Assembly: GCA_020744425.1 (NCBI GenBank)
Contig: JAGMUV010000022.1
Span: forward strand, 744,001 to 808,000
Length of the DNA stretch: 64,000 bases
Reading direction: 5' to 3'
Source of the DNA: Dactylonectria macrodidyma
Taxonomy: Eukaryota > Ascomycota > Sordariomycetes > Hypocreales > Nectriaceae
Positions 1 through 33,545 of this stretch are shown here, one piece after another (positions within the stretch are counted from its first letter, which is position 1; every line of letters starts with the position of its first letter). A model generated the notes under the pieces. It saw only the letters and a program-made list of their open reading frames with translations. It made no database searches and was not told the origin of the DNA. The translations under genes were made by a program, and so were the position numbers.

Positions 1-2119
1 TAGAGCAGATCATATTCACTTACAGGCTATAACAGCCAAATGCAGCAGTATTAGTCATTAATAGAGAGATTAGAGCGGATCATGTTCACTTACAGGCTAT
101 AATAACCAAAGGCAGCTGTATTAGTCATCAATAGAGCTCAGAGCGGATCATATTCACTTACAAGCTACAATAGCCAAAGGCAGTAGTGTCAGTTATTAAT
201 AAAGAGATTAGAGCAGATTATATTTACTTACATACTATAATAGCCAAAGGCGGCAGTATTAAGTCATTAATAGAGAGATCAGAGCGGATTATATTCACTT
301 ACAGACTATAATAGCCAAAGGTAGCGGTATCAATCATCAGTAAAGAGATTAGAGCAGATTATATTCACTTACATACTATAACAGCCAAAGGCAGTAATAT
401 CAGTTATCTATAGAGAGATCAGAGCAGATTATATTCACTTACATACTATAACAGCCAAAGGCGGCAGTGTCAGTCATCGATAAAGAGATCAGGGCAGATC
501 ATGTTCACTTACAGGCTAGAGTAGCCAAAGGCAGTAGTATCAGTTATCAGTAGAGAGATTAGAGCTGATCGTGTTCACTTACATACTACAATAGCCAAAG
601 GCAGTAGTATCAGTCATCAATAGAAAGATTAGAGTGGACTATGTTTACTTACTCTCTATAACAGCCAAAGGCAGCAATATCAGTCATTGATAGAGAGATT
701 AGAGCAGATCGTTTTCACTTACAGACTATAATAGCCAAAGGCAGCAGTGTCAATTATCAATACAGAGATTAGAGCAGATCATATTCACTTACTTCCTACC
801 ACAGCCAAAGGCAGCAGTATCAATTATCAATAAAGAGATTAGAGCGGATCATGTTCACTTACAAGCTACAATAGCCAAAGGCGGCAGTATCAGTCATCCA
901 TAGAGAGATCAGAGCGGATCATGTTCACTTACTTGCTGTAATAGCCAAAGGCAGCTATATTAGTCATCAATAGAGAGATCAGAGCGGGTCATACTCACTT
1001 ACTTTCTACAATAGCCAAAGGCAGTAGTGTTAGTTATTAATAAAGAGATTAGAGCAGATCATATTCACTTACTTCCTACCACAGCCAAAAGCAGCAGTAT
1101 TAATTATCAATAAAGAGATTAGAGCGGATTATATTCACTTACAAGCTACAATAGCCAAAGGCAGCAGTATCAGTCATCCATAGAGAGATCAGAGCGGATC
1201 ATATTCACTTACTTCCTATAACAGCCAAAGGCAGCAGTATTAGTTATTAATAGAGATCAAAGTGGATCATATTCACTCACTCTCTATAATAGCCAAAGGT
1301 GGCAGTGTTAATCATCAATAGAGAGATCAGAGCAGATCATGTTCACTTACATACTATAACAGCCAAAGGCAGCAATATCAGTTATCAATATAGAGATTAG
1401 AGCGGATCATATTCACTTACTTGCTGTAATAGCCAAAGGTAGCTGTATTAGTCATCGATAGAGAGATCAGAGCGGGTCATATTCACTTACTTCCTACAAT
1501 AGCCAAAGGCAGTAGTGTCAGTTATTAATAAAGAGATTAGAGCAGATCATATTTACATACATACTACAACAGCCAAAGGCAGCAGTATTAGTTATCAATA
1601 GAGAGATTAGAGTGGACTATATTCACTTACTTCCTATAATAGCCAAAGGCAGTAGTATTAGTTATTAGTAGAGAGATCAGAGCAGATTATATTCACTTAC
1701 AGACTATAATAGCCAAAGGCGCCAGTATTAGTCATTAATACAGAGATTAGGGCAGATTATATTCACTTACAGGCTATAGTAGCCAGAGGCAGTAGTGTCA
1801 GTCATTAATAGAAAGATTAGAGCGGATTATATTCACTTACAACCTACAATAGCCAAAGGCAGTAGTATCAGTCATCAATAGAGATCAGAGCAGATTATAT
1901 TCACTTACAGGCTACAGTAGCCAAAGGCAGCAGTGTCAGTTATCAATAGAGAGATCATAGTGGATTATGTTCACTTACAGACTACAATAACCAAAGGCAG
2001 TGGTGTCAGTCATCCATAGAGATCAGAGCAGATCATATTCACTTACAGCCTACAATAGCCAAAGGCGGTGGTGTCAGTCATCCATAGAGAGATCAGCGCC
2101 TATTATGTTCACTTACCGT
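1..2119 (-). repeat. Tandem array of intron-like 70-bp units separated by single-codon (3-nt) exons
   Basis: About 31 head-to-tail units with a period of about 70 bp (a few 68 or 71) fill the left end and run off the window. On the minus strand each unit reads GTAAGT, about 40 nt, a branch-like RCTRAY (ACTGAC, ACTGAT or ACTAAT in most), a CTGCCTTTGG tract and a final TAG or CAG. Then come exactly 3 nt before the next GTAAGT. Donors are GTAAGT in all visible units except one GTGAGT (plus-strand 1290s) and one GTATGT (1550s). Visible triplets are TAT x6, CCT x5, GAA x5, TCT x4, CTT x3, AGA x2, CAA x2 and one each of AAA, GTT, GCT and ACG. None is a stop. Intron lengths are 65-68 nt, typical for ascomycetes. 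The array lies downstream of, and in phase with, the last ankyrin exon of the NLR-like gene. Splicing is inferred; the pattern itself is directly visible. The alternative is a non-coding minisatellite that grew from one intron. Confidence 0.85.
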
Positions 2120-5100
2120 CTGCGACGAGTGGAGAGAACAGCGTTAATTATCGATTCAACTGCGAGGTCAGTGCAGGATTACTCACAGGGAGTTGGAATG
2201 AGTAGTTCACTTTCGCGCGGTTTTTGAGCAGTATCTCAATAATATCCGCAGACCCGTTGTCAATTGCGCGAGTTAATGGTGTGCGGCCTCCTGTTTCATT
2301 CGTATTAACGCAGGCTCCTTTGTCTAGCAGAAGCCGCGCAACGGCCACGTGCCCGCCGTCGGCGGCATACGACAGCGGCGTCCGGCCAGTGCTATCCACC
2401 ACCTCGGTGGCGGCGCCATTGTCGAGCAGTCGCTTTACGATAGCCTCGTGGCCCTTCTCGGCAGCGGACAAGAGTAGCTCCTGACTAATCTTGTCCACTG
2501 AATCGACCTGGGCTCCCTTCATTAGTCGGCTAGCTACAGCCCCCTGTCCACTGCAAAGGGCATAGGATATTGGCGTCCCTCCAATTTCGTCCTTTGAGTC
2601 GACGCGGGCTCCTGCCTTGACCAGCAGTTGGACGACGGCCATGTGACCATTCCAAGCGGCGTATGATAGCGGTGTTCGACCATATCTATCTCTTGCGTCG
2701 ACTTCCGCGCCTTTCCAAAACGACAGTTTGGCGATGTCTTTGAAGCGAATATTTGGACCCTTGATCAACAGCTTCACGACACCGTCAAATCCGTTCTCTG
2801 AAGCCCAAGAGAGCGCCGAACGCTGATAAGTGCCATCTCTAGAATCTACTTCAACATCGTCTATTCTAAGCTGAAGCTTTACAATTTGCTCAAGTCCGAA
2901 ATATGAGGCAATCATGAGGGTTGTGAAATCCTGAGGAAAGCCCGTGTGTGTGCTCGCCCAGTAGATCCTGAACCAAGTCATACAACATCCTGACCTAGCG
3001 TCACAGATTCGCAGCAGTGTTGCTATGACTGCATTGTCTTCGATACCTGACGCTCGGAAGTGGGCAGCCCAGTTTGTAGCAGAGTAGTCGAGCAAAACGT
3101 GATCGCGAAGGTAGTGGGATGCTTTTCCGTCCAGGTTTTCGTCCAGAGGGTGGGTCTCAAACTCGGTAAAGAGCAGGTGCCAGATACAGATCTGGAAAAG
3201 AATGCGATGGGACTCGGGTGGCTGGAGTGAGGATTTCCATATGAGTTGATTGTCGTGGTCTCCTCGAGGATCCGGATCGTGTTTCGGAACCAGAAATTCT
3301 TTCGCGGTCTGGTGGAGCAGATATATCTTCGAGTCTGTGATGGTTACGAAGAGGCCGCAGAGGTCTCTGACATACCTGCCGAAGCGCGCCTCTGGTCTGC
3401 CATCCAGGTCTTTATAGGACCGGTGATTTTCTTGAAGAGCCAACGCTAGGTCCATTTCTGCCAGAGTCAAGGGCCGTGCTGCCGCAACGACAATATGCAG
3501 CAGTTTCTTGGCTTCTTCGGAATTGATACTCTTAGCAAGAATCCTCTCGTACGCATCATCGACGGTTCGTGGAAGTGAGGAAGTTATCTTGCGAATCTTG
3601 GTCTTATCGATGCTGATGTCGCTTTCGATCAATTCCAGGGTGAGATAAACCCACAGATATGTCTGGTTAGGAATACGCCGGAGCTCCTGCAGGAGCAGCT
3701 GTTCCTCGTCTGGGTTGAGATCCAGGCTAGCTTGGATGAGCGAAACCCTGTCTTTTATATAGACATCGATCTCTCGGGCAATCTTCGATATCTCCGCTTG
3801 GCTTTCTCCTTTCAGGTGGATGACAGGCAGCCCCGGAATATTGAGAGGCTGGAAGGCCCGACCGATTTTGTCGTAGGGCCGACTTGTTACGAGAAACTTC
3901 AAGTTGAAGTTATTCTTCGTGCTATAGAACTTGCACAGGGCTTCGGCAAGCTTGTCCCGTTCTTGGTCTTCGCATTCGTCGAATGCGTCAAGAATACAGA
4001 CTAACTCGCCAGCATTCTTGTCCTGTGAAGCCATAACCAGGACCTCCCAGAGTTCATCAAAGGAGCTGGTAAGATGTGCTTTATAGGCTTCGAGCCGCTT
4101 GACAATCTTGTCAGAGAAAAGGTCCTCTCTCTGTATGAAGAGCTGATGTAGGATGCAGCTGAGAGCGCTTTTGGCGCTCCTCTGATCCTCGAAGTCGTCC
4201 TTGAAAAAGTAATAGCAGGACGTTCTGGATTTCGTAGTCTGAAGCTCAGAGCCCACCAGATATTTTGCTAAGACGGACTTTCCGCATCCGGGATTTGCAG
4301 ATACCCAGAGCATACTTGATGATTTGCTTTCTCGCCATTGCTGAAAGTGGTCGTGACCTATGAACCACTCACACGTCCCTGGGACCCGATCTGGATTCCT
4401 ATTCTTTCTATCCAGATATGGTGAGGTATGCAGGGTCTGGAGGATATCTCTCCGAGTCTTGGAGTCTTCACTGGATTGAACTGCAGAGCAGGAAAGGTCA
4501 GTCTATTGGTAATAATGAATCTGGCTATCAATTCCGTGATTTCGTACCGAAGGTCATAGTCTGCGCAATATACTGTTCGCCACTGCCAGGGTTGATGTTA
4601 TGGCCTTGGCCGGTAATGACAGACAGATAGCCCGTTCCCCCAGAGGCGATATTCTGGGAATTTGTCATAGAGCCCTCAAAATCCGAGTCTGGCACAGATG
4701 ACTCCACGTTCGACAGCTGGTCAATCGCGTCCTTCAGCTGGGCCATCTGGCTTCGGGTTGCCGTCTTGAACAACTGATTGGTAGCCAATGCATCCAAGCC
4801 CCTCAGGATGCCCTGCATCAGGGTCTCCACCCGGTGTGCTTTTCCCAAGCGGAGCAGAAGGGTGCGATAGAGGTCAAGCACTGATCCGTCCTTCGATTTC
4901 TTCGTCCCTTTTTCAACTTTCTCAAAGATGTCCTGCAGAATTTTGGCCTTCTCTTCGCAGCCACTGACGATAGGCTGGATGGCCTTTTTAGATGGTTCAT
5001 CCAGGGCCAGGCCTTGGAGTTGATCACGGGCCAGACCCAGAGTGTCTTGCACGAGAGGGAGATTCCGGTTCACTTCATTGAACTCGTTCGGAAGGCCTCT

Positions 5101-5181
5101 GAGGTGTTGAATCGCCTTATATGTCGAAGAGATGGCTTGAACGACTGCGATTGTGGACGCAACGATGCTGAGGGGATCCAT
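1..5181 (-). CDS. NLR-like STAND protein: SesA-type N-terminus, NACHT, ankyrin repeats, then single-codon exon array (3' end outside window)
   Basis: Probable cytosolic non-self or heterokaryon-incompatibility receptor of the fungal STAND class. The start is the ATG at 5181 (MDPLSIVASTIAVV), the usual opening of SesA-type domains. Exon 1 is 5181-4548. Intron 1 is 4547-4481 (67 nt, GTACGA, ACTGAC, CTGCAG) and joins in frame to exon 2, 4480-2187, giving 976 codons. The NACHT domain shows a Walker A PGCGKS, a Walker B LVCILDAFDE and FLVTSRP. About six ankyrin repeats follow (for example GRTPLSYAADGGHVAVARLL). Exon 2 ends after CCT at 2187, followed by a strong donor GTGAGT. The next intron (2186-2120) ends CGCAG before the first triplet ACG, and the array follows. 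If that intron is kept, the frame stops at 2148-2150, giving a 988-residue protein. Domain calls are from recognised motifs; the receptor role is inferred from the family. Confidence 0.85.
2120..2186 (-). other. First array intron, with in-frame stop if retained
   Basis: This 67-nt segment joins the last ankyrin exon to the triplet array. It begins GTGAGT, has a possible branch site near TTAACG, a pyrimidine run and ends GTCGCAG. Its interior is unlike the repeated units, so it is probably the ancestral gene intron or an outside boundary of the amplification. Read through, it adds twelve residues and a TAA at 2148-2150, so splicing here would be a switch between a short and an array-tailed protein. 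Confidence 0.65.
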
Positions 5182-33414: not shown

Positions 33415-33545
33415 CCAGTCTCAAAGGCTCGGATCTCTAGCAAACCGGTCTCAAAGACCCGGCTTCCTAACAAGCCGGTCTCGAAGACCCGGCTTCCTAA
33501 CAAGCCGGTCTCAAAGACCCGGATCCCTTGGGATCCGGTCTACCG
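33415..33545. repeat. 30-bp tandem repeat made of short hairpins
   Basis: About 4.3 copies of a 30-bp unit around CCGGTCTCAAAGACCCGG. Each contains perfect stems: GGTCT-CAA-AGACC, CCGGCTT-CCTAAC-AAGCCGG, and in the last unit GGATCC-CTTG-GGATCC. The copies differ mostly at stem positions while pairing is kept. Confidence 0.8.

Follow-up and report, generated by a model that had tools for sequence, protein, structure and literature searches.

Genes for NACHT-ankyrin (NACHT-ANK) proteins of the truffle Tuber melanosporum contain dozens of 3-bp exons that are alternatively spliced, a finding of Iotti et al. 2012 (Fungal Biol 116:261-275) as cited in passages of four later papers (PMC4986451, PMC3689799, PMC10197012, PMC9815663). 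Two of these passages speak of "3-bp long microexons" (PMC10197012) and "dozens of 3 bp mini-exons" (PMC9815663). The abstract of a further paper calls functional microexons undescribed in filamentous fungi, and its reference list includes Iotti et al. (PMC11121469). A search of open-licence papers turned up no account of such arrays beyond Tuber. Here we describe an array of this type in a 64,000-nucleotide stretch of the genome of Dactylonectria macrodidyma (contig JAGMUV010000022.1, positions 744,001 to 808,000; hereafter the window), where a minus-strand gene, which from its sequence is a SesA-NACHT-ankyrin NOD-like receptor (NLR), carries a long chain of introns separated by single codons between two predicted ankyrin repeats.

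We favour, with good confidence, the explanation that these are true single-codon exons encoding a fast-changing and possibly splice-variable loop, and the array is real and most likely functional. Use of the single-codon exons in the mRNA seems very likely, and selection of the loop for diversity seems likely. Whether splicing in D. macrodidyma would be combinatorial we regard as evenly balanced. The initial annotation of this DNA knew of no description of the architecture; the citations of the truffle genes show that there is one.

Architecture of the array and its gene

Parsing of the minus strand places 31 repeat introns of 65-68 nt inside the window, with starts running from 2116 down to 23 and exactly 3 nt between each and the next GT; the last of them (start 23) is cut by the left window edge. 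The adjoining DNA extends the array by about 1.5 kb, to window position -1510, and the whole (array 1) amounts to 53 GT-AG introns and 52 exons of exactly 3 nt. The first intron (2120..2186, 67 nt, donor GTGAGT) lies outside the repeat family and has a similar counterpart in a paralog, the C52 gene. It is followed by the first single-codon exon, ACG (2117..2119), and by the repeat part (1..2116, continuing to -1510), which is supported by the parse, by Tandem Repeats Finder (70-nt unit, 30.3 copies and 81% matches in the window part) and by a chain search. The final two introns, 78 and 53 nt long, are again outside the repeat family, and array introns span 53-78 nt overall.

Every intron that precedes a triplet in array 1 has GT..AG and a YTRAY branch site (52/52 for each), with the stricter CTRAY in 43/52 and the donor GTAAGT in 48/52. 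The initial annotation had read about 31 units of this length and spacing, each with full intron signals, behind an ankyrin exon closed by a whole codon and a donor, in an array running off the left edge; all of these observations hold. The layout recurs in the C52 gene, where array 2 comprises 23 single-codon exons (TDQPFRFSIERQFIEFFISNRRR) and 24 introns counting the last. Taking the two arrays together, introns have their own GT, branch site and AG in 52/52 and 23/23 cases, and the spacer is 3 nt in 52/52 and 23/23. Intron lengths vary (65, 67, 68, 72 and 78 nt in array 1; 64, 65, 67 and 78 nt in array 2) and as a rule are not multiples of three. Retention of an intron would bring in an in-frame stop in 52/52 and 22/23 cases.

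The chain search required a GTRNGN donor, YTRAY and YAG in introns of 45-92 nt joined by exons of 3, 6, 9 or 12 nt. The longest chain comprised 53 introns in the window gene, 10 in the C52 gene, where the strict rule interrupts the chain, and six in a further paralog, L052; the maximum was one in eight other loci examined. In shuffled DNA (100 crude two-base-block shuffles for each locus with intron-like matches) no chain exceeded 3 introns, and a chance origin of the array was rejected on the comparison of 53 with at most 3.

Exon 1 (4548..5181, minus strand) opens with the start ATG and encodes a SesA domain (PF17107; Pfam E 2e-39 on 4552-5178) and then a glycine-rich stretch; its 3' boundary was set from the sequence together with the join seen in the Ilyonectria protein P0002. 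An ordinary intron of 67 nt (4481..4547, GTACGA..CTGCAG) is predicted to lead into exon 2 (2187..4480), an open frame with NPHP3_N/NACHT, winged-helix and ankyrin-repeat regions (Pfam on 2187-4478: NPHP3_N E 8e-43; Ank_2 7.2e-40; NACHT 1.7e-5, slightly under the curated cut-off). Exon 2 finishes on a whole codon (..NYSFQLP; terminal residues ..IIEILLKNRAKVNYSFQLP), just before the donor at 2186. The glycine-rich stretch, GGTGYLSVITGQGHNINPGSGEQY, lies between SesA and NACHT at about 4548-4640 of the window, and we take it to recall the amyloid signalling motifs of fungal NLRs.

Beyond the array, exon 3 (C15:742325-742489, minus strand) starts SPLSRAV and reads in frame as SPLSRAVENKNRTAVELLLKYGARPDFHGYNCYTPLEVAQKLGSTTIVQMLKSAV up to a stop. 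Because this in-frame ankyrin exon follows, the array is internal and not, as first annotated, the 3' end of the gene. The last two codons of array 1 spell GR, and GR-SPLSRAV looks like the opening of the following ankyrin repeat. If all other array codons between exons 2 and 3 are removed, the Pfam Ank_2 match has its first residue precisely at this GR (residues 36-88 of 92); with all 52 codons included, ankyrin repeats are still detected on both sides. The microexon array sits between ankyrin exons, that is, in the C-terminal recognition domain, and in the known ankyrin fold its site would presumably be the beta-hairpin loop, a placement based on the Pfam match and on the ankyrin consensus.

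Variation of the codons and of their introns

Diversity was compared over 50 repeat units of array 1 and 21 of array 2. Intron columns have a mean diversity of 0.162 (maximum 0.55) in array 1 and 0.168 (maximum 0.68) in array 2; the three codon columns stand at 0.74, 0.67 and 0.48 in the former and at 0.76, 0.75 and 0.63 in the latter. The GT, the AG and the branch-site A do not vary in 50/50 and 21/21 repeat units, and the chance that five such columns would all be invariant is 0.0016 for array 1 and 0.008 for array 2. The kind of change also differs, with 5.36 and 4.07 transitions per transversion in the introns vs 0.28 and 0.42 in the codons. Pairwise, the codons of array 1 form 133 identical, 0 synonymous and 1092 non-synonymous pairs, and those of array 2 form 18, 4 and 188, respectively.

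Pairing units by the similarity of one flank exaggerates the contrast between codon and intron: in array 1, preceding introns 0.1-5% apart (14 pairs, mean 3.9%) accompany codon positions that are 52% different, and in array 2, 18 pairs with introns 5-10% apart have codons that are 63% different. The fairer comparison uses both flanks, and at no more than 8 nt differences it gives 4.7% for introns vs 30% for codons in array 1 (10 pairs) and 5.8% vs 33% in array 2 (2 pairs). In most comparisons the codons evolve at several times the pace of the introns, an excess that is not seen among the very closest copies.

Stop codons are absent from the 52 codons of array 1 and the 23 of array 2 (0/75 together). 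Shuffles of the first base relative to the second and third lead to an expectation of 6.2 and 2.1 stops, and a shuffle without any stop occurred in 0/20,000 trials for array 1 and with P 0.047 for array 2; shuffling all columns lowers the expectation to 3.6 (P 0.0096) and 1.2. With due caution for the relatedness of the copies, we read the array codons as translated and diversified.

Some regularities of codon choice were seen in passing. Array 1 uses one codon per amino acid except for arginine, and its third codon base is T or A in all codons but the first (ACG). Codons ending in AG number 0 in array 1 and 2/23 in array 2 (L010 4585-6017).

The rival that survives best is a minisatellite, in which a 70-nt unit, an intron with its flanking codon, multiplied in tandem and the triplets have no coding role; splicing would then remove one 3.7-kb intron or join random donor-acceptor pairs. 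The array is a tandem repeat at 81% matches, its outermost splice sites could pair, and the public gene model P0001 terminates within it, all of which fit such an origin. Under a non-coding repeat, however, neither the lack of any stop in 75 codons nor the invariance of the splice signals in every unit is explained. Such a repeat also sits poorly with codons whose diversity exceeds that of every intron column in array 1 and of all but one in array 2, and with L052, where the introns have diverged and yet an in-frame micro-exon chain persists. We hold the minisatellite to be unlikely.

Paralogs, gene models and the remaining alternatives

A protein piece of the C52 gene matches 23 places in the genome, seven of them at least 66% identical. 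These seven close loci comprise two with arrays, one (L052) with five micro-exons, and four without. L052, the C13 gene, is 63% identical in exon 2 and has, at the same place, six introns around exons of 9, 9, 3, 3 and 3 nt, followed by an ankyrin exon. Its introns are diverged: one matches the repeat-intron profile at E 3e-11, that same intron being among the 15 rows of the profile, and parts of two others match at E 0.0017 and 0.034. Such weak matches make the set look old. Among the 16 more distant places, the four for which 2 kb of the 3' end was read have ordinary ankyrin ends. Array-less L050 (C29:359001-369000, reverse strand) has a 2005-codon open frame with many near-identical ankyrin repeats, another mode of repeat diversification within the same family.

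The repeat-intron family was not found outside the two arrays, as all 62 pattern matches and all 45 DNA matches fall inside them (62/62 and 45/45, both lower bounds). This bears on a second rival, an introner, in which an intron would have inserted repeatedly between the codons of a pre-existing loop, the codon diversity being that of an ordinary coding stretch. Codon columns that are near random (diversity about 0.75, few transitions) beside clearly related introns are what it would predict. Against it stand the lack of dispersed copies and the need for insertion at every codon boundary, always in phase 0. Moreover, units 36-37 and 44-45 have identical introns and the same codons; such neighbours were copied jointly, which points to tandem duplication. 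We regard an introner origin as very improbable.

The source of mutation in the introns leaves some trace. Changes of C/T before A or of G/A after T, the context of repeat-induced point mutation, account for 14/27 variable intron columns in array 1 and 9/19 in array 2. Against a TpA/ApT ratio of 0.80 elsewhere in the window, array 1 reaches 1.05 and array 2 only 0.84; for the depletion index (CpA+TpG)/(ApC+GpT) the arrays show no fall, with 1.36 and 1.43 vs 1.22 elsewhere in the window. Repeat-induced point mutation is only suggested as the mutation source of the arrays, and it would not explain the codon transversions. That the array belongs to a dying gene hit by this process, for which one may cite the same sequence contexts and the premature TAG in exon 2 of the array-less paralog L048 (C14:180001-190000, reverse strand), is very improbable given open exons 1, 2 and 3, an array free of stops, intact splice signals and an unlowered depletion index.

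Public gene models trace parts of both arrays. For the window gene, P0001 takes introns 2186-2120 and 2116-2050, so that ACG becomes an exon of 3 nt; from GCT onwards the model reads into the following intron and meets a stop there, inside the array. For the C52 gene, a path that uses 23 introns and includes 14 exons of 3 nt reproduces P0006 exactly, and it is one of the paths of fewest introns when introns of 20-1700 nt are allowed; no path was found with introns limited to 40-400 nt.

Several observations weigh against the explanation that we favour. Four of the seven close paralogs have no array at all and carry plain ankyrin repeats at the site, and the micro-exons of L052 came from a search that permitted multiples of three only. 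An extra AG lies between branch site and acceptor in 3/52 introns of array 1 and 9/23 of array 2, and P0006 enters several units at an upstream AG, partly in another frame. The excess of codon change fades among the nearest copies: with both flanks compared in array 1, it is 3.0% for introns vs 8.3% for codons at up to 6 nt differences (4 pairs) and 1.5% vs 0% at up to 4 (2 pairs), and in the one-sided comparison of array 2 introns less than 5% apart (4 pairs, mean 4.6%) go with codons 8.3% different. Shuffles of all columns leave stop avoidance in array 2 weak (P 0.24), and stop avoidance is no longer significant once repeated codons are collapsed to distinct types (P 0.18-0.65). Finally, tandem copies are related, and pairs of them are not independent. 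On balance, what the initial annotation proposed, successive one-codon exons in phase 0 within an NLR-like gene, appears well supported by the sequence, through the in-frame ankyrin exons that flank it, the absence of stops in 52 + 23 codons, codons that outpace introns in most comparisons, and the L052 micro-exons lying between diverged introns.

Traces of similar genes occur in other species. By a simple pattern, the end of exon 2 was recognised in 20/121 proteins, six of which read on into an intron that looks like the first one of array 1: P0004 (D. estremocensis), P0005 (F. oxysporum), P0007 (F. oxysporum f. sp. rapae), P0009, P0010 (F. langsethiae) and P0011. The last residues of P0012 (Fusarium sp. 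LHS14.1) are FGCYSMM, in our reading a possible product of one frame of the repeat unit, and in P0018 (Trichoderma ceciliae) the exon 2 end is joined to a terminus like that of exon 3. Near the array site the gene models of Ilyonectria robusta, D. estremocensis, F. oxysporum, F. langsethiae and Fusarium sp. LHS14.1 break off or skip sequence. Arrays in the species of such models are possible; the order Hypocreales, to which D. macrodidyma belongs, also contains Fusarium and Trichoderma. A protein query made of the exon 2 end and the start of the first intron returned six proteins, all already among the known matches. A search with the C52 exon 3 protein returned two, its own gene and a weak insect ankyrin match, a silence that proves little because P0018, with its exon-3-like end, was missed. 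No Tuber protein was present among the 120 listed of 1847 protein matches.

Two further observations stand apart. In a viral collection the unit pattern gave two single matches, in both of which the intron profile was silent, and they were taken as chance. Elsewhere in the window, a 30-nt tandem repeat (3.7 copies, 86% matches) lies at 33418-33528.

A proposed frame-safe array and its known counterparts

According to the single-codon-exon explanation, the array would be a run of genuine spliceosomal introns, about 67 nt in length, that are each recognised as a unit and leave one codon between neighbours; intron definition of this kind is usual for short fungal introns. The mRNA would encode a SesA-NACHT-ankyrin receptor in which the loop between two ankyrin repeats gains up to 52 residues. 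Because every exon is 3 nt long and in phase 0, the reading frame survives any choice of donor and acceptor, and joining any donor to any later acceptor would lose whole codons only. It follows that the array can grow, shrink and be reshuffled by recombination between near-identical introns with the frame intact, and that many splice patterns are possible at no cost to it.

We infer that every unit is spliced, that isoforms would differ and that the loop has a role in recognition. A more tentative proposal, on which we would place the smaller part of our confidence, is a combinatorial peptide generator in which cassettes may be independently included or skipped, so that one gene would yield a large set of receptors, with fast turnover of codon order through intron recombination. 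If true, this would be an immune-repertoire device found in two distant fungal classes. The sequence suggests that selection acts on the single codons, and Hypocreales are organisms in which genetics and long-read RNA are easy. Public models handle such genes poorly, so the design may be widely missed. The array also offers an extreme natural test of how near to each other two introns can stand and both still be spliced.

Set beside described systems, the array shares features with several of them. Introner-like elements are dispersed in unrelated genes, whereas here 62/62 and 45/45 matches, as lower bounds, lie in the arrays. Spliceosomal twin introns (stwintrons) of filamentous fungi, in the descriptions consulted, likewise involve neighbouring or nested short introns that have multiplied in fungi, but there the internal intron splits a splice signal, whereas here each intron has complete signals of its own (52/52 and 23/23) and a codon stands between neighbours. 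The micro-exon genes of Schistosoma mansoni, as outlined in passages of PMC10526429, resemble the array in their very short exons (3-81 bp) and in protein variation by alternative splicing; they differ in encoding secreted proteins and in having introns of up to 5 kbp, whereas the array introns are 53-78 nt (about 67 nt as a rule), array exons nearly all consist of a single codon and the encoded protein is an NLR. The high-similarity ANK, TPR and WD repeats of Podospora NLRs, in the portions of PMC4986451 that treat them, also consist of near-identical units with concerted evolution and diversifying selection at few positions of the recognition domain, but the unit there is a protein repeat and here an intron plus one codon.

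The closest counterpart is the nank type of Tuber, by architecture as the citing papers describe it. In both, a receptor with a NACHT-type NTPase and ankyrin repeats carries dozens of 3-bp exons (here 52 and 23 units, whose exon status is inferred from sequence) in its C-terminal recognition domain, with the frame always kept. The two differ in fungal class, here Sordariomycetes, and in the kind of evidence, alternative splicing having been reported for Tuber and genomic DNA alone being considered here. The 3-bp-exon architecture as such is already known from truffles, as those citations indicate; what the present locus adds is a second lineage (Hypocreales, Nectriaceae), a paralog with an older, diverged set, and evidence for the codons as a fast-evolving part.

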